DNA of 20,321 nucleotides, from NCBI GenBank assembly GCA_002396065.1, contig DGWE01000082.1, positions 1 through 20,321 on the forward strand. Reading direction: 5' to 3'. The stretch is from Eubacteriaceae bacterium UBA4266. GTDB lineage: Bacteria; Bacillota; Clostridia; Eubacteriales; Eubacteriaceae. The notes under the pieces are model-generated. The model was given only the letters and a program-made list of their open reading frames with translations. It ran no database searches and was not told where the DNA came from. Shown one piece after another: positions 5,568 through 13,363 of the stretch; position 1 is the stretch's first letter, and every line of letters begins with the position of its first letter. Both the position numbers and the translations under genes were made by a program.

Positions 5568-5622
5568 AATGGCCTCCTTTTATCTCTCAATCGATTTATT
5601 CGAGCTTCAATCAGATAAATCA

Positions 5623-5631
5623 ATTATAGCA
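5623..5631 (-). promoter_or_regulatory. Extended -10 promoter for the YARHG-amidase(-surE) cluster
   Basis: On the minus strand TGCTATAAT forms a perfect -10 with the TG extension, about 56 bases upstream of the first start codon. No strong -35 is seen, which extended -10 promoters do not need. Confidence 0.55.
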
Positions 5632-5717
5632 TAGATTCAATGGCCATGGGTGAAAACGTATAAGGAAAAGCGCCGAAGCAAAAGAGGCCGCGCCGCCCAG
5701 CTCTGAGCCGCCCGAGC

Positions 5718-6464
5718 CTACTTTTTGGCTGGGAGCTCGGCGAGATCAGGCAGCTTGTCCGGCGAAATGTCGGAGAGAAAATCCTCGACGTAAATCATGT
5801 GTTCGAGCATGCGCTTGCGCGCGAGGGGCGAGTCCTTTGCGGCGATGGCGTCGGCAATGCGCCGATGCTGGAAACAGAGGGCGTCGCCTTCGTCCTTTTC
5901 CCGGGTAATGATCGCGACCCGGGCTTGGTAACGCACGGTTTCCAGCAGGGTCGTCGCAGCGGTCAGCGAATCGCGGATCAGGCAGTTGCCCGAGGCGGCG
6001 GCGATGGACTGGTGAAAGTCGTTGTCGAGATCGGCCGAGGTGTCGATATCTGGCGCGGCGTCCATCTGATCGGCAAGGTTCGTGAGATGCGCGATAAAAT
6101 CAGGCGAGGGGTCGGCGGCCGCGAGGCCAGTCGCTTCGATTTCGAGGCTCTGTCTGAAGTGGTGGATGTCGTAAAGGGAGCCGCCGCCGAGGTAGAAGGA
6201 GATGGTCATGGGCTGGAGCAGCGCCAAATCCATGCGGTCACTGATGAAATTGCCTTCACCCTGCCGGCTGACGACGAGACCGATCATTTCGAGGGCGCGG
6301 ATCGCTTCGCGGATGGTCGCCCGGGAGACGCCGAGGCTTTCAGCGAGCTGGCGTTCTGGGGCCAGCCGGTCGCCTGGACGCAGCTTTTTATTTTGGATGT
6401 CGTGCTGAATGCGGCGGATAACGGTTTGAAAAGCGCGGGATGCGTTTTGGTTTTTGGCGCTCAC
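5718..6464 (-). CDS. FadR-subfamily GntR regulator, candidate repressor of lactate genes
   Basis: A 248-residue regulator. The winged helix-turn-helix is at about 10-75, with the GntR hallmark PGDRLAPERQLAESLGVSRA (30-49) and IREAIRALEMIGLV; the FCD ligand domain covers about 95-232, with metal-site residues Asp147, His151 (DNDFH), His200 and His222. I chose GTG at 6464 because AGAAAGGAG lies 6 bases upstream and the promoter's start point falls near 6494; the in-frame ATG codons at 6509 and 6488 lie in or almost at the promoter start and lack ribosome sites. It is divergent from the lactate permease. LldR and LctA-type members respond to lactate or related hydroxy acids, and operators of the TGGT-N3-ACCA type fit FadR-group proteins. 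Two such sites occur in this window, at the permease and lactate dehydrogenase promoters. Lactate as the ligand is inference. Confidence 0.9.
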   Translation of the reverse strand: MSAKNQNASRAFQTVIRRIQHDIQNKKLRPGDRLAPERQLAESLGVSRATIREAIRALEMIGLVVSRQGEGNFISDRMDLALLQPMTISFYLGGGSLYDIHHFRQSLEIEATGLAAADPSPDFIAHLTNLADQMDAAPDIDTSADLDNDFHQSIAAASGNCLIRDSLTAATTLLETVRYQARVAIITREKDEGDALCFQHRRIADAIAAKDSPLARKRMLEHMIYVEDFLSDISPDKLPDLAELPAKK

Positions 6465-6500
6465 GGGTGTCTCCTTTCTCAAAATCATGTTGCTTCGTTT

Positions 6501-6529
6501 ATTATGCATTAAGCCTTATTTTAAATCAA
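6501..6529 (-). promoter_or_regulatory. Sigma-A promoter of the GntR regulator
   Basis: On the minus strand TTGATT (6529-6524), a 17-base spacer and CATAAT (6506-6501). The expected start near 6494 leaves a leader of about 30 bases before GTG 6464 and argues against the upstream ATG codons. Confidence 0.55.
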
Positions 6530-6599
6530 ATTGTAAATCATGATAGTGAATATTTTGTTCTGAAAAGATAGAAAATTTCTAATTTAGGTAATTTTAAGA

Positions 6600-6628
6600 T
6601 TGACAAATTGGTCAGACCACTATATACT
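6600..6628 (+). promoter_or_regulatory. Sigma-A promoter of the lactate permease
   Basis: TTGACA (6600-6605), a 17-base spacer and TATACT (6623-6628). The spacer contains the palindromic operator at 6609-6619, so a bound regulator would block RNA polymerase. Confidence 0.8.
6609..6619. promoter_or_regulatory. GntR/FadR-type operator, copy 1
   Basis: TGGTCAGACCA, a perfect palindrome with 5-base arms around a central A, lies between -35 and -10 of the permease promoter. The context AAATTGGTCAGACCACT is, apart from the central base, the reverse complement of the copy at the lactate dehydrogenase promoter (9823-9833). TGGT-N3-ACCA is the established core for FadR-subfamily proteins such as PdhR and LldR. 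Confidence 0.75.
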
Positions 6629-6683
6629 TAAAGTATCGGTATTCGTTTACAGGCGTTAAACTGCCGAGAAAAGGGGGAAAAAC

Positions 6684-8246
6684 ATGAATTTTGGTTTATT
6701 TTTACTGGCATTAATTCCGATCATCTGGTTGATCATTGCCCTCGCGGTGATGAAGATGCCAGGGTATTGGGCCTGTGTCATCGCACTGGTCATCGGCGCG
6801 GTGATTGCCATGGTCTCATTCGGAAGCTCCGGCTCCAATGTCGCAACGGCGGCGCTGGAAGGGGCACTCAACGCGTTGTGGCCGATCATATTGGTCATCA
6901 TCGCGGCACTGTTTACTTATAATATCACGCTGGAAACCGGCGCGATGGACAAAATCAAGGCGATGCTCGCGTCGGTCTCGACTGACCAGCGTGTCCTGCT
7001 TTTGATCATCGCTTGGGGATTCGGCAACTTCATGGAAGGGATGGCCGGCTTCGGTACGGCTGTCGCGATTCCGGCTTCGATCCTCGTCGGCCTCGGCTTT
7101 GATCCGATTCCGACCGTTGTGGCCTGCCTAGTCATCAACTCGACGCCGACCGCCTTCGGTTCCGTTGGGGTTCCGACGACGACCATGGCCGCCGTCACGG
7201 GCTTAAACGCCACAGCACTTTCCGCAAATGTCGCGCTGATCGAATGCTTGATTATGTTCATTTCACCGATTATCGCGATTATGATTCTCGGTAAAGGCGC
7301 AAAGGCCATGAAGGGCGTCTGGGGCATCACATTGGTCTCATCCCTCGCCTTCACACTGCCGTGCTTCATCGTCGGCCGTTTCGTCGGCGCAGAACTGCCG
7401 AACATCGTCGGTTCCATCGTCTGCATGGCTGTGACCATTTTGATGGCGCGTAAAATGCGTGACCGCGAAGTACCGGAAGAATACAGCACGATTCAACAGC
7501 AGGACGCCGAAGGTGTCAAAGAAAAACTCACCGTCGCGTCAGCGGTCAATGCGTGGCTGCCCTTCATCCTTATTTTCGTGATCTTGGTTGTGACCTCAAG
7601 CTTGGTACCATTCATCCACGATCCGCTTTCAAAGGTTGCTTCGGCTGTGACGATCTACAATGGTAAAGGCGCAGCGCCGCTAACCTTCACTTGGATCAAC
7701 ACGCCGGGTGTCTTGATCTTCATCGCGGCCATTATCGGCGGTTTAGCTCAGGGCGCCAGCGGCAGCACACTTGGCAGAGTTTTCGTCAAGACCGTGACCG
7801 GCAACTGGAAAACCATTGTGACGATCTGCTCGGTTTTGGCATTGGCTAAAATCATGACTCACTCCGGCATGACCGGCGAAATCGCGAGCGTTCTCGTCGC
7901 TGCAACTGGCACAGCCTTCCCGCTGATCTCACCGTTGATCGGGACCATCGGTGCCTTTGTTACCGGTTCTGGGACATCGACATCCGTCCTGTTCGGGGAT
8001 CTGCAGCGTCAGACGGCACAGGCTATCGGTGCGAACCCGGCATGGCTGTGCGCGGCCAACGAATTGGGCGCTGGCATCGGCAAGATGATCAGCCCGCAGG
8101 GCATCGCCATTGGGACATCCGCTGTCGCCTTGGCCGGCTCGGAAAGTGTCGTGCTGAGAAAGGTAGCGAAGTACTGCCTGCTCTTTGTGGTCCTCGCGGG
8201 AATTATCTGCTACTTCTTCCCGATGATTGGACTGGTGATTCATTAA
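6684..8246 (+). CDS. lctP: L-lactate permease (LctP/LldP family)
   Basis: A 520-residue polytopic membrane protein, almost wholly hydrophobic helices, of normal length for the lactate permease family, which imports lactate (and glycolate) with protons. Family-type stretches include NFMEGMAGFGTAVAIPASIL (about 112-131), the STPTAFGSVGVPTTTM segment (about 154-169), and near the end TGSGTSTSVLFGDLQ and ISPQGIAIGTSAV. The ATG has AAGGGGG 8 bases upstream. It has its own promoter with an operator in the spacer, is divergent from the GntR regulator, and ends in a very strong terminator, so it is a single-gene unit, separate from the dehydrogenase about 1.6 kb downstream. Glu codons are nearly all GAA, unlike the minus-strand housekeeping genes, which suggests high expression. 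Lactate is the most likely substrate given the neighbours; glycolate or another 2-hydroxy acid cannot be excluded. Confidence 0.93.
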   Translation: MNFGLFLLALIPIIWLIIALAVMKMPGYWACVIALVIGAVIAMVSFGSSGSNVATAALEGALNALWPIILVIIAALFTYNITLETGAMDKIKAMLASVSTDQRVLLLIIAWGFGNFMEGMAGFGTAVAIPASILVGLGFDPIPTVVACLVINSTPTAFGSVGVPTTTMAAVTGLNATALSANVALIECLIMFISPIIAIMILGKGAKAMKGVWGITLVSSLAFTLPCFIVGRFVGAELPNIVGSIVCMAVTILMARKMRDREVPEEYSTIQQQDAEGVKEKLTVASAVNAWLPFILIFVILVVTSSLVPFIHDPLSKVASAVTIYNGKGAAPLTFTWINTPGVLIFIAAIIGGLAQGASGSTLGRVFVKTVTGNWKTIVTICSVLALAKIMTHSGMTGEIASVLVAATGTAFPLISPLIGTIGAFVTGSGTSTSVLFGDLQRQTAQAIGANPAWLCAANELGAGIGKMISPQGIAIGTSAVALAGSESVVLRKVAKYCLLFVVLAGIICYFFPMIGLVIH

Positions 8247-8289
8247 AAGCGAAACCCATAGGGTTTGCCTAATATTACACCCATATGCA

Positions 8290-8333
8290 ATGATCCCCGC
8301 ATCAAGTCAAATTGATGCGGGGATCATTTTTTT
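8290..8333 (+). terminator. Intrinsic terminator of lctP
   Basis: ATGATCCCCGCATCAA (8290-8305) pairs perfectly with TTGATGCGGGGATCAT (8312-8327), a 16-base-pair stem with a 6-base loop, running into seven T (8327-8333). A smaller AAACCC/GGGTTT hairpin (8253-8266) lies just after the stop codon. Confidence 0.95.
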
Positions 8334-8336
8334 GCT

Positions 8337-8373
8337 AAAAAATGGGGGCGGACGATCGATCAGCCTGCCCCCA
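8337..8373 (-). terminator. Intrinsic terminator of the FprA gene
   Basis: On the minus strand TGGGGGC (8373-8367) pairs with GCCCCCA (8349-8343) around a 17-base loop, followed by six T (complement of the A-run 8337-8342). It is placed back to back with the lctP terminator. Confidence 0.75.
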
Positions 8374-8387
8374 AATTGAGCGTTTCC

Positions 8388-9608
8388 TTATTTGTTTTTC
8401 TTTTCGTAAATGTCGTCGGCGATGGCCTGGCCCAGGGCGATCAGGCTTTCGCGGGTTTCGTCGTTCACTGAGGATTTGACGGTGATAGTGTCGCCGAGAT
8501 AGGTGATATTGTCGAGCCCTTCCAATTCCTTTGCGATCAGAGAGCCGGATTTTGGCGCCCAGCTGCCGTTTTCAATGATCGAGATGGTGCGGTTCTGGAT
8601 GTGCAGGTTTTTCATGTCGTCGATCAGATTGTGAACCGTTGGGTAAATGCCGAGGTTGTAAGTCGGCGAGGCGATGACCAGATGGGAATATCTGAAAATC
8701 GAGGCAATGACGTAGGACGGGTGGGTCTTGGAGACGTCGAAGAAACGGACGCGCTTCACGCCGCGCTGCACGAGGGCGTTAGCGAGGATGTCCGCCGCCT
8801 GTTCGGTGTTGCCGTACATAGAGCCGCAGGCGATGACGACGCCGAGGTGTTCCGGTTCGTAACGGCTCCACAAATCGTATTTTTCAATGAAGCGGTCGAT
8901 GTCCTGACGCCAGATCACGCCGTGGAGCGGGCAGATCATTTTAATGTCGAGGCCCGAGGCTTTTTTCAGCAGCATCTGGACGTTCTTGCCGTATTTGCCG
9001 ACGATGTTGGTGTAATAGCGGCGGGCTTCGTTGAGCCAGGCGATTTCTTCAGCGCCGTTGATTTCGTCTTCGAACAAGACGCCGTCGAGGGTTTTGAAGG
9101 AGCCGAAGGCGTCAGCGGAGAACAGGGTGCCCGTTGTCGTGTCAAAGGAGACGAGGACTTCCGGCCAGTGCACCATCGGCGCGCCGATAAAGGTCAGCTC
9201 GTGCTTACCGAAGGAAACGGTGTCGCCGTTTTTGACGGTATCGACGCGGTCGGCGATGTGGTGGCCGAATTGTTCGAGGAAGGTTTTGGCCTTCGCGGAA
9301 CACAGCACCCGAGCGTTGGGGTAGCGCATCAGAATTTCGTCGAGGGTCGCGGCGTGGTCAGGTTCGGCGTGGTGAACGACGACGAAGTCGAGATCACGGC
9401 CGTCGAGGGCTGCTTCGACGTTTTCGAAGAACTGACGCCCGCAGGACCAGTCTACGGTGTCGAAGAGCACTGTCTTTTCATCTTTTAATAAGTAGGAATT
9501 GTAAGACACGCCTTCCGGCAGCGGATGGACGTTTTCAAAAAGCGTTAACCGTCTGTCGTTGACGCCGACGAAGGTTAAATCGTCATCAATTTTGCGAATA
9601 TTGTACAT
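8388..9608 (-). CDS. FprA-type flavodiiron protein (oxygen/NO reductase)
   Basis: A 406-residue A-type flavoprotein that reduces O2 to water (and often NO to N2O) in anaerobes. The N-terminal metallo-beta-lactamase-like domain (1-250) holds the diiron ligands His80, Glu82, Asp84 (HAEPDH), His147 (MVHWPE), Asp166 (SADAFG) and His229 (CPLHG); His85 follows as in the family. The C-terminal flavodoxin domain (256-402) has the FMN phosphate loop CGSMYGNTEQ (261-270) and the later ASPTYNLGIYP loop. Size and architecture are those of class A proteins without added rubredoxin domains, so electrons must come from a separate rubredoxin or F420-like donor. The ATG has TTGGAGG 7 bases upstream. It has its own promoter and terminator, on the opposite strand between the lactate permease and lactate dehydrogenase. 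It probably protects oxygen-sensitive flavin and iron-sulfur enzymes. Confidence 0.95.
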   Translation of the reverse strand: MYNIRKIDDDLTFVGVNDRRLTLFENVHPLPEGVSYNSYLLKDEKTVLFDTVDWSCGRQFFENVEAALDGRDLDFVVVHHAEPDHAATLDEILMRYPNARVLCSAKAKTFLEQFGHHIADRVDTVKNGDTVSFGKHELTFIGAPMVHWPEVLVSFDTTTGTLFSADAFGSFKTLDGVLFEDEINGAEEIAWLNEARRYYTNIVGKYGKNVQMLLKKASGLDIKMICPLHGVIWRQDIDRFIEKYDLWSRYEPEHLGVVIACGSMYGNTEQAADILANALVQRGVKRVRFFDVSKTHPSYVIASIFRYSHLVIASPTYNLGIYPTVHNLIDDMKNLHIQNRTISIIENGSWAPKSGSLIAKELEGLDNITYLGDTITVKSSVNDETRESLIALGQAIADDIYEKKNK

Positions 9609-9649
9609 AGTTGACCTCCAAATTTAATATCGTAAATCATTCCGCCCTT

Positions 9650-9658
9650 ATTTTATCA
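9650..9658 (-). promoter_or_regulatory. Extended -10 promoter of the FprA gene
   Basis: On the minus strand TGATAAAAT gives a TG-extended -10 about 42 bases upstream of the start codon. The -35 region is weak. Confidence 0.4.
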
Positions 9659-9785
9659 CGATTCACTAAATTTTTCTGGCCAAAAAGGAAAAAAGAGGAT
9701 ATAATATAGAAAAATCTTGTCACAAACGATTTCACCAAAAAGAGTAAGCTTTACAAAAATAATTGCATTTACTGTGTGGAATGGC

Positions 9786-9814
9786 TTGATTTTAGAACAG
9801 GTTTACATTATAAT
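9786..9814 (+). promoter_or_regulatory. Sigma-A promoter of the lactate dehydrogenase gene
   Basis: TTGATT (9786-9791), a 17-base spacer and a perfect TATAAT (9809-9814). The expected start is near 9821, at the edge of the operator, with a 90-base leader to the start codon. Confidence 0.8.
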
Positions 9815-9822
9815 AAAGGAAG

Positions 9823-9833
9823 TGGTCAGACCA
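9823..9833. promoter_or_regulatory. GntR/FadR-type operator, copy 2
   Basis: TGGTCAGACCA again, just downstream of the -10 and over the expected transcription start. The context AAGTGGTCAGACCAATTT matches copy 1 (6609-6619) read on the opposite strand over about 16 bases, so the identity extends beyond the core. Confidence 0.75.
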
Positions 9834-9910
9834 ATTTAAATGTGCCGGCCATGTGAATTTATTATGATTGATAAAAACGGTATTTGTGGAGAGTAAGAGG
9901 AGGAAGCTAA

Positions 9911-11347
9911 ATGAGCTATACGTACAATCCAGTCACCCCTGAAATTATCGAACAGATTAAAGAAGCGGCCAACGGCCACGTCATTTTAGGGGATGACATC
10001 AACGAAGATTTCGCCCATGACGAAATGCGCATCTACGGTCAGGAATACCCGGATGTCGTCGTTGAACCGAGAACGACCGAAGAAGTTGCGGCCGTTGTCA
10101 AAATCTGCAACGACAACAAAATCCCAGTTACCCCGTCAGGCGCACGTACCGCGTTAACCGGTGCCCCAGTTTCTGTCAAAAAAGGCGTCATGATTTCAAC
10201 CCTGAAGATGAACAAGATCCTCGGGTACGACGAAGAAAACCTGGTCGTCCGCATTCAGCCAGGCGTTCTGCTGAACGACCTCGCAGAAGATGCCCTGAAA
10301 CACGGCCTGATGTATCCACCAGATCCTGGTGAAAAATTCGCAACCGTCGGCGGCAACGTTTCGACTAACGCTGGTGGGATGCGCGCAGTTAAATACGGCT
10401 GCACCCGTGACTATGTCCGTTCACTGACCGTCGTTCTGCCGACTGGCGAAGTCGTCACAGAAGGCGCGACCGTCGCGAAGACAAGTTCCGGTTATTCATT
10501 GATGAACTTAATCGTCGGCGCAGAAGGGACCCTCGGGATTGTCACTGAAATGACGATGAAAGTCATCGTGGCTCCGCAGGCAACCATGTCGATGATCATT
10601 CCTTATCCGAGCATCGAAGAAGCGATCGGTGCTGTGCCGAAACTGTTCCAGGCTCACCTCGATCCGCAGGCCCTCGAATTTATGGAAAAAGACGTCACGA
10701 TGGCGACTCAGAAATCCCTCGAAAAAGACGTTTATCCGGCAGAAATGGACGGCGTTGAAGTTAAAGCTTACGTTCTGGCTACATTCGACGGCAACGACGA
10801 AGACGAATTGATGGACAAGATCGAAAAGGCATCAGAAGTTGTCCTCGAAGCCGGCGCACTCGACGTTCTGGTCGCCGATACCCCGAGACTGCTCGCAGAC
10901 GCATGGCAGATTCGTTCATCCCTGCTTGAAACCATCGAAGAAAGCACCAAGCTCCTCGACGAATGTGACGTCGTTGTGCCAATCACCAAGATTCCTGAAT
11001 TCTTGATCTACGCTAAATCCTTAGGCGAAGGCAAAGATTACGAAATCAAAGACTTCGGTCACGCTGGCGACGGCAACCTGCACATCTACCTGTGCTCCAA
11101 CGGCGACGACAAGGAAGCCTTCATGAAAGAATCCGATGAATTCATGACCAAGGTTTACGCAAAATGCGTCGAACTCGGCGGCTTGATCTCCGGTGAACAC
11201 GGCATCGGCATGGGCAAGATGAAATATTTGAAGAACATGGTCGGCGAAAAGAACATGGAACTCATGCGCGGCATCAAGAAAGTCTTCGACCCGAACATGA
11301 TCATGAACCCAGGCAAGGTTTGCTTCGATCCGGAAGCGGATGACTAA
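9911..11347 (+). CDS. lctD: FAD-linked lactate dehydrogenase (LctD/GlcD family)
   Basis: A 478-residue flavoprotein of the GlcD/LctD/D-lactate dehydrogenase family, oxidising lactate to pyruvate. The FAD-binding PCMH domain spans about 46-225 (VEPRTTEEVAAVV, PSGARTALTG at 75-84, GGNVSTNAGGMRAVKYGCTR at 147-166, VGAEGTLGIVTE); the C-terminal FAD-oxidase domain carries the active-site motifs FGHAGDGNLHI (382-392) and SGEHGIGMGK (427-436). In Acetobacterium woodii LctD works with EtfBC, coupling lactate oxidation by NAD to ferredoxin oxidation. Here no etf gene is adjacent, so an EtfAB encoded elsewhere is needed if the mechanism is the same. The ATG has AGGAGG 8 bases upstream. It is transcribed from a promoter with the same operator as the permease. 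Glu is nearly always GAA, which suggests high expression. A glycolate or other 2-hydroxyacid substrate is possible but less likely beside a lactate permease. Confidence 0.85.
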   Translation: MSYTYNPVTPEIIEQIKEAANGHVILGDDINEDFAHDEMRIYGQEYPDVVVEPRTTEEVAAVVKICNDNKIPVTPSGARTALTGAPVSVKKGVMISTLKMNKILGYDEENLVVRIQPGVLLNDLAEDALKHGLMYPPDPGEKFATVGGNVSTNAGGMRAVKYGCTRDYVRSLTVVLPTGEVVTEGATVAKTSSGYSLMNLIVGAEGTLGIVTEMTMKVIVAPQATMSMIIPYPSIEEAIGAVPKLFQAHLDPQALEFMEKDVTMATQKSLEKDVYPAEMDGVEVKAYVLATFDGNDEDELMDKIEKASEVVLEAGALDVLVADTPRLLADAWQIRSSLLETIEESTKLLDECDVVVPITKIPEFLIYAKSLGEGKDYEIKDFGHAGDGNLHIYLCSNGDDKEAFMKESDEFMTKVYAKCVELGGLISGEHGIGMGKMKYLKNMVGEKNMELMRGIKKVFDPNMIMNPGKVCFDPEADD

Positions 11348-11401
11348 ATATTATCTTTTTAAAGATAAATTTAATAATTTGACAAATATTTCACAGTTTA
11401 C

Positions 11402-11430
11402 TTTTCAACACGAAAATTCTGTGATATAAT
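11402..11430 (+). promoter_or_regulatory. Extended -10 promoter before the acyl-CoA dehydrogenase gene
   Basis: TTTTCA (11402-11407), a 17-base spacer and TATAAT (11425-11430) preceded by TGA, a TG-extended -10. The expected start near 11437 falls inside the left arm of the terminator hairpin that follows. An isolated TTGACA at 11379-11384 has no -10 at the right distance. Confidence 0.6.
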
Positions 11431-11432
11431 AT

Positions 11433-11480
11433 GTTCTGTTAATTCGGAACCTTCTCAATCCGGATTAACAGAACTTTTTT
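11433..11480 (+). terminator. Strong hairpin terminator in the lctD to acyl-CoA dehydrogenase gap
   Basis: GTTCTGTTAATTCGGA (11433-11448) pairs with TCCGGATTAACAGAAC (11459-11474), 16 pairs with one T-G wobble and a 10-base loop, then six T. It could end lctD transcripts. Because a promoter -10 ends only two bases before it, it could also work as an attenuator or 5' hairpin for the next gene. Confidence 0.85.
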
Positions 11481-11542
11481 ATAAATTTTGCGGAAAAATT
11501 TAAAAAGAGAAAATTTTGAAAGAGAAGAAGGGAAACTAAAAC

Positions 11543-12712
11543 ATGGCTTATCAAATTTCTGACCAGGCGAAGGACTTATTGAAAGACGTTCATGATTTCT
11601 GTGAAAGAGAAGTCATCGAACAGGCAAAGGATTACGACAGATCAGGCGAATTCCCAACCGAAATGTACGACAAGGCTAAGGAAATGGGCCTGAACATTTT
11701 GGAAGTTCCGACAGAATACGGCGGAATGGAAATCTCTGGCCCGGATGACAAAGAAGGGATGTCTCGTGTCGATATCGCTGCGCTTTTCGAAGAAATGGCA
11801 AGAGCAGATGCTGGCTTCGCAACCACAATCTCCGCTTCCGGTCTGGGTACTAAACCAGTCCTGATCGCCGGCAACGACGAACAGAAATCCCGCGTTTGCG
11901 ACATCCTCTGCAACGGCGGTTTCGGCGCATTCGCACTGACTGAACCTGGTGCAGGTTCTGACCCGGCAGCTGGCAAAACCACAGCTGTTAAAGACGGCGA
12001 TGACTACATCATCAACGGGACAAAATGCTTCATCACCAACGGCGGGATCGCAGATTTCTACTGCGTCACAGCCATGACTGATAAATCCAAGGGCACACAC
12101 CACGGCATGTCCATCTTCTTGGTTGAAAAGGGCACACCGGGTCTTTCAACTGGTAAAGAAGAAGACAAGATGGGGATCCGTCTGTCCAACACTGCAGAAG
12201 TTATCTTCGAAGACGTCCGCGTACCGAAGGAAAACCTCCTCGGCGCAGAAGGCGAAGGCTTCAAGATCGCAATGGAAACCCTCGACCAGGCACGTGCTTG
12301 GATGGGTGTTGTCTCCGTCGGTATCGCTCAGAGAGCAATGGACGAAGCGATCGCTTATTGTAAAGAACGTCAGCAGTTCGGCCGTTCAGTCCTGAAATTC
12401 CAGGCAATGCAGTTCAAAGTTGCCGATATGGCGATCAAGATCGAAGCAGCTCGTCAGCTCAACGCTTACGCACTGACATTGATGGATCAGGGCAAACGCT
12501 ACACCAAAGAAGCTGCGATGGCTAAATGCTTCGCTTCTGACGCTGCAATGGAAATCACCACTGAAGCGGTTCAGATGTTCGGCGGCTACGGCTACTGCCG
12601 TGAATATCCGGTTGAAAAACTGATGCGCGACGCTAAGATCTTCCAGATCTTCGAAGGAACCAACGAAATCCAGAGAATCGTCACCGCAAACAACACAATT
12701 GGCAGATTCTAA
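11543..12712 (+). CDS. Short-chain acyl-CoA dehydrogenase (butyryl-CoA dehydrogenase-like)
   Basis: A 389-residue FAD enzyme of the acyl-CoA dehydrogenase family. N-terminal helical domain (1-120), beta domain (about 125-225) with the FAD/substrate signature ALTEPGAGSDPAAG (131-144) and KCFITNGG (161-168), and C-terminal helical domain. The catalytic base is Glu371 in IFEGTNEIQRIV (369-380), the position used by short-chain (butyryl-CoA) enzymes. In anaerobes such enzymes, with EtfAB, reduce crotonyl-CoA or longer enoyl-CoAs in butyrate and caproate formation; the preference for chain length cannot be read here. The ATG is preceded by AAGGGA. It lies 195 bases after lctD, behind its own promoter and hairpin, and no crotonase, hydroxyacyl-CoA dehydrogenase or etf gene is adjacent. 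Glu codons are nearly all GAA, which fits high expression. Confidence 0.92.
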   Translation: MAYQISDQAKDLLKDVHDFCEREVIEQAKDYDRSGEFPTEMYDKAKEMGLNILEVPTEYGGMEISGPDDKEGMSRVDIAALFEEMARADAGFATTISASGLGTKPVLIAGNDEQKSRVCDILCNGGFGAFALTEPGAGSDPAAGKTTAVKDGDDYIINGTKCFITNGGIADFYCVTAMTDKSKGTHHGMSIFLVEKGTPGLSTGKEEDKMGIRLSNTAEVIFEDVRVPKENLLGAEGEGFKIAMETLDQARAWMGVVSVGIAQRAMDEAIAYCKERQQFGRSVLKFQAMQFKVADMAIKIEAARQLNAYALTLMDQGKRYTKEAAMAKCFASDAAMEITTEAVQMFGGYGYCREYPVEKLMRDAKIFQIFEGTNEIQRIVTANNTIGRF

Positions 12713-12733
12713 TTTATCCATATCGATCATTAG

Positions 12734-12761
12734 GAGTCGGTGCGCTGCACCGGCTCTTTTT
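12734..12761 (+). terminator. Intrinsic terminator of the acyl-CoA dehydrogenase gene
   Basis: GAGTCGGTGC (12734-12743), loop GCT, GCACCGGCTC (12747-12756) with one G-T pair, then five T. Confidence 0.9.
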
Positions 12762-12781
12762 GTTTTTATATTTTCCAAAAT

Positions 12782-12807
12782 AAAAAACCGAAGCGCGCGC
12801 TTCGGTT
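12782..12807 (-). terminator. Intrinsic terminator of the cupin gene
   Basis: AACCGAAGC and GCTTCGGTT form a perfect 9-base-pair stem around GCGC (12786-12807); on the minus strand it runs into a T-run (complement of the A-run 12782-12787). Confidence 0.85.
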
Positions 12808-12831
12808 GAATTTGCGATTTTCTGAAAAAGG

Positions 12832-13173
12832 TCAGTCGTTGTAGATCAGGGCCATGAAGACGAGATCCTCCTGGCCGTTGTTTTCCATGCTGTGCCACTG
12901 GCCAGGTTCAATCGTACAGATATCGCCGGCGTGGACGGTCGTTTTCGATTTGTCGTTGTCGATAAAGGTGCCTTCGCCCGACAAAATGTAGTAGGGCTCC
13001 GTTTCGTGGATGTGCTGGTGCCAGCCGATGGTCGATCCCGGCTGGAGCACCACCTTGGCGTACATTCTGCCGTGGCCGTAGAGCTTGTCTGCGCTGACGA
13101 TGTGGTAGCGGTAAGCCTTGCCGACGCCGCCGGCCATGTTTTCGACGACTTCGCGTATTTCGTGTTGAACCAT
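12832..13173 (-). CDS. Small single-domain cupin protein
   Basis: A 113-residue beta-barrel metal-binding protein. Cupin motif 1 is GWHQHIHETEPYYILSGEG (50-68), with His52, His54 and Glu59 as metal ligands; motif 2 is GDICTIEPGQWHSMEN (83-98), with His94 as the fourth ligand. Such lone cupins include enzymes, sugar or phenolic binders, and small detoxifying proteins; the substrate cannot be told. I chose ATG 13173 because a perfect AGGAGG lies 5 bases upstream; the ATG seven codons further upstream has no ribosome site and would place AGGAGG inside the coding region. It is divergent from the MATE transporter with a 190-base region between, so the two could share a signal. It converges on the acyl-CoA dehydrogenase gene and each has its own terminator. 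Confidence 0.88.
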   Translation of the reverse strand: MVQHEIREVVENMAGGVGKAYRYHIVSADKLYGHGRMYAKVVLQPGSTIGWHQHIHETEPYYILSGEGTFIDNDKSKTTVHAGDICTIEPGQWHSMENNGQEDLVFMALIYND

Positions 13174-13227
13174 TTGGACCTCCTGTGCCTGCATTGCAAA
13201 TGCCTTTTCTTTATTATTCTTCTTATT

Positions 13228-13256
13228 ATTATGACAGGTTTGGCTGCTTTTGACAA
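13228..13256 (-). promoter_or_regulatory. Sigma-A promoter of the cupin gene
   Basis: On the minus strand TTGTCA (13256-13251), a 17-base spacer and CATAAT (13233-13228) preceded by TGT, a TG extension. Confidence 0.6.
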
Positions 13257-13363
13257 CGGTGGCGTTTAGCAGAGCAGCGTGAGCAAATGCGTTTTCATTT
13301 CAGATCATTGTGGTATGTTGTACAATTATGAGTTTGTGTAAAGAAAAGAAGGAGGCGTTAAAG

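Follow-up and report, generated by a model that had tools for sequence, protein, structure and literature searches.

The regulator LctA of Acetobacterium woodii is reported to bind TGGT(CTG)ACCA between lctA and lctBCDEF and to repress lctBCDEF, from which it is released by lactate (PMC12910521). For LldR of A. woodii, Corynebacterium glutamicum and Pseudomonas aeruginosa, TGGTNNNACCA has been used as the motif (PMC9600882). Here we describe a 20,321-nucleotide stretch of DNA (contig DGWE01000082.1 of Eubacteriaceae bacterium UBA4266, hereafter the window), in which two copies of the palindrome TGGTCAGACCA stand at the promoters of a lactate permease gene (lctP) and of a D-lactate dehydrogenase-like gene (lctD), next to the gene of an FCD-type GntR regulator. 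The two palindromes are very probably operators of one LctA/LldR-type lactate regulon, the genes of which are split over several units.

The likeness to the LctA regulon of A. woodii includes the FCD-GntR protein, an identical 11-bp operator (TGGTCTGACCA / TGGTCAGACCA) and lactate dehydrogenase, permease and racemase genes as targets (PMC12910521; operon layout as in a relative, locus L080). Indeed, the reported TGGT(CTG)ACCA (PMC12910521) is the 11-mer of the window read on the other strand, and TGGTCAGACCA is also found upstream of the regulator gene (locus L179) in genome G022, which is A. woodii, its LctD being identical to 7qh2_C over 463 residues. On the other hand, one operon and one operator are reported for A. 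woodii, whereas the window species has three units and three operators.

A comparable arrangement has been described in Caproicibacterium lactatifermentans, likewise a lactate-using chain elongator, where TGGTNNNACCA is predicted between larA and lldP and ldh is cotranscribed with larA (PMC9600882). In that species lldR lies 3' of a phosphotransferase system operon and a single site serves the divergent larA-ldh and lldP units (PMC9600882), unlike the window, where the regulator gene adjoins lctP and three separate sites occur. The same gene content is found in the cluster of Candidatus Pseudoramibacter fermentans, composed of a regulator, lctP, a potential flavodoxin, lactate dehydrogenase (LDH) and acyl-CoA dehydrogenase; expression of its permease, LDH and acyl-CoA dehydrogenase genes exceeds the 90th percentile (PMC6974650). 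The consulted parts of that account give expression, describe no operator or regulon and do not mention larA. No Pseudoramibacter or Eubacterium limosum regulon of this kind was found among the titles and opening abstracts listed in our literature search, subscription journals being largely outside it.

Predicted operators at the lactate promoters

The features carrying the argument are listed below, by window position.

5718..6464, minus strand: regulator, FCD-type GntR (Pfam FCD 72 bits, GntR 65.8 bits); probable start GTG 6464
6501..6529, minus strand: promoter-like TTGATT-N17-CATAAT of the regulator gene, 9/12 consensus bases, palindrome absent
6600..6628, plus strand: lctP promoter TTGACA-N17-TATACT, 11/12 consensus bases; arrangement kept in 5/5 genus genomes (by eye)
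6609..6619, no strand assigned: predicted operator TGGTCAGACCA in the lctP promoter spacer, exact match, conserved in the genus
6684..8246, plus strand: lctP, lactate permease (Pfam Lactate_perm 428.8 bits; NCBIfam lctP 402.9 bits, cut-off 341.15)
9786..9814, plus strand: lctD promoter-like TTGATT-N17-TATAAT, 10/12 consensus bases
9823..9833, no strand assigned: predicted operator TGGTCAGACCA where lctD transcription is expected to start, exact match, conserved in the genus
9911..11347, plus strand: lctD (LctD2 clade), FAD-linked D-lactate dehydrogenase-like (best match in the PDB 7qh2_C, 424 bits)

The two palindromes are the sole exact matches to the 11-mer within the window and, when opposite strands are read (AGTGGTCTGACCAATTT vs AGTGGTCAGACCAATTT), 16 of 17 bases are common to both copies, the differing base being the central one. 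The first copy lies inside the 17-bp spacer of the lctP promoter, which is the top promoter-like match across positions 5600–13300, while the second begins 8 bases past the -10 box of the lctD promoter-like site, that is, over the expected start of transcription. The promoter-like site of the regulator gene, read on the minus strand from 6529 to 6501, stands 80 bases from the palindrome and contains no copy of it. In all these respects, from the positions and the flank match on the opposite strand to the absence of a site at the regulator's own promoter, the original prediction was borne out. Its description of the adjacent regulator as an FCD-type GntR protein is likewise upheld, the Pfam FCD and GntR domains both scoring above their cut-offs. 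The regulator probably starts at GTG 6464 rather than at the listed ATG 6509, because the latter would fall within the promoter-like site of the gene itself, and because AAGGAG stands 5' of the GTG.

The scan was extended to the whole assembly from which the window derives (G000; 1.31 Mb, 65.9% complete). The exact 11-mer occurs there three times, at lctP, at lctD and at larA, and nowhere else. The third copy is on contig C59, 21 bases 5' of the larA ATG and 12 bases past TTGCAC-N17-TATACT (by eye); larA encodes a nickel-dependent lactate racemase, scoring 622.9 bits (cut-off, 460). The sites at lctP and lctD are real, as originally predicted, but the two-gene regulon then proposed has at least three members, larA having been overlooked. 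It is thus a well-supported conclusion that we are dealing with a new example of the already known LctA-type control, with larA added as the third member.

A search with the longer AATTGGTCNGACCAATT, admitting up to three mismatches, retrieved nine places in the assembly as compared with two for the control. All nine were inspected for extra members: three are the lactate sites (1, 1 and 2 mismatches), five are inside open frames (contigs C50, C18, C20, C87 and C106), and the ninth (C67) is near a contig end, outside the listed open frames. The place on C50, inside a sulfhydrylase-like open frame (name given by eye), is the sole non-lactate one with two mismatches or fewer. Separately, TGGTATAACCA, without the C-N-G centre, was seen upstream of a hybrid-cluster-protein-like gene (by eye; locus L011, G000:C109:5860-5870).

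Conservation in the genus and footprint across the family

By kinship of its sequence the source organism is a Pseudoramibacter, the closest named relative of the regulator being that of Pseudoramibacter porci (88%), and five genomes of the genus were compared. In four of them TTGGTCNGACCA picks out precisely the three genes lctP, lctD and larA; in the fifth (G001) the core is exact at lctP, with 9/10 bases at lctD and 8/10 at larA. The place of the operator relative to the -35 and -10 boxes is kept at lctP in 5/5 genomes, and relative to the -10 box at lctD and larA in the four exact-site genomes, with varying bases around it in either case (all by eye). A second site (9/10), 21 bases from the first, was present at lctP of G003 (locus L164).

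When up to two mismatches to AATTGGTCNGACCAATT were admitted in the five genomes, 14 of 17 matches were found at lctP, lctD and larA, two of them at lctP of G003, while the other three comprise two at the thiolase and LUD operons of G001, described below, and one inside a gene. The exact core TGGTCNGACCA occurs 18 times in the genus versus 3 for the reversed control: 13 at lctP, lctD or larA, 2 at the extra operons of G001 and 3 elsewhere, namely two inside open frames (L230 and L250) and one between frames, ahead of the ThiC gene of G004 (L231). Besides G001 lctP and larA, 33 matches with three mismatches were obtained in the genus; among the 14 of these that were inspected, 12 lie within open frames 90 codons long or longer, one between frames in G003 (L245) and one near a contig end (L244).

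The survey of the family covered 40 genomes, the regulator being called at E 1e-30 and LctD at E 1e-60. The regulator was found in 30 genomes and LctD in 31, with both present in 29, neither in 8 and one only in 3. At least 9 of 10 core bases occur upstream of the regulator in 28/30 loci (26 exact); the two loci without the site are one at a contig edge and one belonging to a 34% relative. Among the 30 orthologues the regulator varies hardly at all in its DNA-recognition stretch. Together with the identity of the 11-mer to the reported A. woodii LctA operator, this presence of the operator 5' of the FCD-GntR orthologue supports the idea, already put forward in the original prediction, that one regulator ties these promoters together.

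As for the target genes, 30 larA-like loci were recognised. All 12 in which larA stands alone, apart from the lct operon, carry the site (6 exact, 5 with 9 bases, 1 with 8). Among the other 18, 13 lie just 3' of lctD on the same strand, and the remaining 5 are on fragmentary contigs (2), distant homologues (2) or at a contig end (1); none of the 17 with upstream sequence has more than 7 core bases within 250 bp, and a score of 8 occurs at two of them farther out, 260–292 bases away. Genes of the LctD2 type, to which the window lctD belongs (see below), have the site in 8/8 cases (7 exact, 1 with 9), while at the 22 loci with A. woodii-type lctD the best score was 8/10 (1/22 within 250 bp, 6/22 within 450 bp). 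In operons of the Acetobacterium type, no site was found ahead of larA or lctD. In dinucleotide-shuffled upstream regions 9/10 was reached in 0.1–0.6% and 8/10 in 5 to 9%. These family fractions are not to be read as probabilities, since related species are not independent samples. The sites thus keep their positions, are conserved, and go with orthologues of the regulator and with lactate genes.

Alternative explanations and the proposed mechanism

Several results weigh against a single LctA/LldR-type regulon. The loose TGGT-N3-ACCA is not enriched in the assembly (11 places, 3 of them TGGTCAGACCA, versus 14 for the reversed control). In the family the bare core TGGTCNGACCA does not exceed the reversed control in the 19 genomes of genus g2 (90 vs 122) and counts 23 vs 21 in the 5 genomes of genus g4; being no commoner than the control in these larger genomes, the core alone defines no regulon there. 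The larA site of G001 is degenerate, its score of 8/10 being reached by about 6% of shuffles. The regulator itself shares only about 41% identity with the A. woodii protein and, with LldR as its best NCBIfam match at 120.3 bits against a cut-off of 311, falls outside the E. coli LldR equivalog (NF007741). Finally, further regulon members may be missing from an assembly that is 65.9% complete.

That the loose pattern is not enriched, and that the window scan for the 11-mer with up to two mismatches was not significant (5 matches versus 3.85 expected), speak for palindromes that are a coincidence or a short repeat devoid of function. Against this, each of the three exact copies in the genome stands at a lactate gene; throughout the genus the sites stay put with respect to the promoters amid differing flanks, and across the family they follow the genes. 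The significance of the palindromes comes indeed from position and conservation and not from the counts within the window; on these grounds, and on that of the shuffles, a chance repeat was rejected, and we consider it extremely improbable.

A different matter is whether the operators, though real, serve chiefly a different GntR protein of the FadR subfamily, or whether the adjacent regulator responds chiefly to pyruvate or another 2-hydroxy acid. TKGT/ACMA boxes in which three bases separate GT from AC typify several regulators of this subfamily, including PdhR, GlcC and LldR (PMC4494728); PdhR is the second-best NCBIfam match of the window regulator (94 bits), and the regulator search gave, at first look, six candidates in the assembly. 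With respect to another regulator, no genome has more than one protein that passes E 1e-30, and this protein has the operator upstream in nearly all of its loci and co-occurs with LctD; with respect to another signal, the identical 11-mer is the reported LctA site of A. woodii, for which lactate is the reported signal (PMC12910521). Both variants, taken together, appear to us unlikely.

The LctA/LldR-type regulon is instead favoured by the FCD-type GntR regulator and by TGGT-N3-ACCA at the lactate genes (motif: PMC9600882, PMC12910521). Control of permease, dehydrogenase and racemase is indicated by the presence of sites, in 4/5 genus genomes, the fifth having imperfect sites at two of the genes. 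By analogy with A. woodii LctA, we infer that the window regulator binds these sites, that it represses and that lactate is the signal. A dimer of the adjacent FCD-GntR protein (5718–6464) would bind TGGTC-N-GACCA, sitting between -35 and -10 at lctP and just 3' of -10 at lctD and larA, and would block RNA polymerase at all three promoters while lactate is absent. Binding of lactate to the FCD domain would free the dimer from the operator, and import by LctP, racemisation by LarA and oxidation by LctD would be induced together from three transcription units. Such a polymerase-blocking mechanism is supported by the positions of the sites along with the orthology of the regulator. An activating role, as known for the FCD protein CitO, which activates with citrate present (PMC4746285), seems very improbable here, considering that sites between -35 and -10 or 3' of -10 are suited to blocking and that repression is what has been reported for the A. 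woodii protein (PMC12910521).

The dehydrogenase, its neighbours and further targets

The remaining features of the region are as follows.

8289..8328, plus strand: terminator-like hairpin 3' of lctP, 17-pair stem followed by a T run
8388..9608, minus strand: flavodiiron-type gene, ODP beta-lactamase plus flavodoxin-like (Pfam ODP 80.4 bits; Flavodoxin_1 24.4 bits, just below the cut-off of 25)
11433..11474, plus strand: conserved hairpin separating lctD from the acyl-CoA dehydrogenase gene; its stem covaries across 5 genus genomes
11543..12712, plus strand: acyl-CoA dehydrogenase gene, neighbour of lctD (Pfam Acyl-CoA_dh_1 169.4 bits)

In a tree of 32 LctD rows, midpoint-rooted and with a long-branch warning for L073 above all, which lies near the window's clade, and also for L057, the window LctD and 7 others split with 100/100 support from 24 rows that include A. 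woodii. The two types share about 45% identity, and both are present in G032, G033 and G035. The window LctD therefore belongs to the LctD2 clade and is not the A. woodii orthologue. Both by clade and by the lack of etfB/etfA adjoining lctD, the window protein is outside LctBCD, the electron-bifurcating lactate dehydrogenase of A. woodii. Two etf pairs were found in the window's assembly on other contigs (C62 and C74), none beside lctD, and their loci, scanned for the operator, reached at best 10 to 11 of 16 bases, so no site is present. The earlier contrast between split units and the single operon of A. woodii consequently holds as far as the separate units are concerned, but the comparison is not gene for gene, LctD coming from another clade. 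That the operator is found at two distantly related dehydrogenases favours continuity of the regulon over inheritance of one promoter.

Etf genes adjoin a prephenate dehydrogenase gene in the window's assembly, as do the etfAB of Candidatus P. fermentans, which are also located elsewhere (PMC6974650). In that organism the correlation with EtfA and EtfB was r2 0.93 and 0.91 for acyl-CoA dehydrogenase, and 0.77 and 0.65 for LDH (PMC6974650); the stronger correlation of acyl-CoA dehydrogenase with Etf agrees with an operator at lctD and none found at etf. For the acyl-CoA dehydrogenase gene of the window, the single match in the assembly at E 1e-40, a separate operator was not found: beyond the two palindromes the window contains no further copy at 0 or 1 mismatch. 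In Pseudoramibacter lctD and this gene are adjacent, without etf and with a conserved hairpin in between. In G032 and G035 an acyl-CoA dehydrogenase gene and etf genes come after the LctD2 gene, which has sites of its own, partly in pairs about 31 bases apart. Operator pairs 31 to 32 bases apart, or about three helical turns, were observed before LctD2 or lct operons at L050, L051, L052 and L166; they belong to G032, G033 and G035, and the second site in L050 scores only 8/10.

The gene link between Ldh and acyl-CoA dehydrogenase is shared with the lct clusters (Ldh, Bcd, Etf) reported in Anaerobutyricum, Anaerostipes and Fusobacterium nucleatum (PMC8914356, PMC7702098, PMC12630350), which the LctD2-acyl-CoA dehydrogenase-etf operons of G032 and G035 resemble in that link. 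In the window, by contrast, etf is not adjacent and a hairpin splits lctD from the acyl-CoA dehydrogenase gene, the likeness being drawn from published descriptions only.

This hairpin, of 16 pairs, lies in the interval 11425–11482 directly after a promoter-like TGTGATATAAT and is kept in 5/5 genus genomes; both partners have changed in 7 of the pairs, while the loop, CTTCTC, is invariant. A T run follows it in four of the five genomes, and the complement of the loop, GAGAAG, is found again a short way 5' of where the next gene starts. Terminator, attenuator or leader element are the alternatives for its role. An Rfam scan of 6400–11700 gave a single match, below the gathering score, and none at this hairpin.

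The gene between the two lactate units had been called an unrelated minus-strand gene. It is indeed on the minus strand, but it may not be unrelated to them, since each of the other four genomes of the genus has a homologue of this flavodiiron-type gene beside lctD.

G001 carries two additional near-perfect operators (15/16 each; L125 5425–5441 and L126 6155–6171), one before a thiolase / enoyl-CoA hydratase / 3-hydroxyacyl-CoA dehydrogenase operon and the second before a DUF445 / LUD / LUD-FeS-CCG (Lut-like) operon. In the remaining four genomes of the genus the thiolase loci score 11/16 at best, so no site is present there. We tentatively suggest, as a possibility with the odds rather against it, that the lactate repressor of G001 may have captured the reverse beta-oxidation operon and the DUF445 / LUD / LUD-FeS-CCG operon as targets. 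If so, lactate uptake, a second lactate oxidase and chain elongation itself would all be switched on by lactate in G001. Candidatus P. fermentans is predicted to convert lactate to medium-chain fatty acids (PMC6974650).

More generally, if uptake, racemisation and oxidation share the operator, their joint induction from separate units would be explained, and a defined set of probably lactate-responsive promoters would be at hand. As judged from the genomes compared, the regulon looks more constant than the operon, because the operator stays with the genes even where these lie apart or where a different dehydrogenase is in use.

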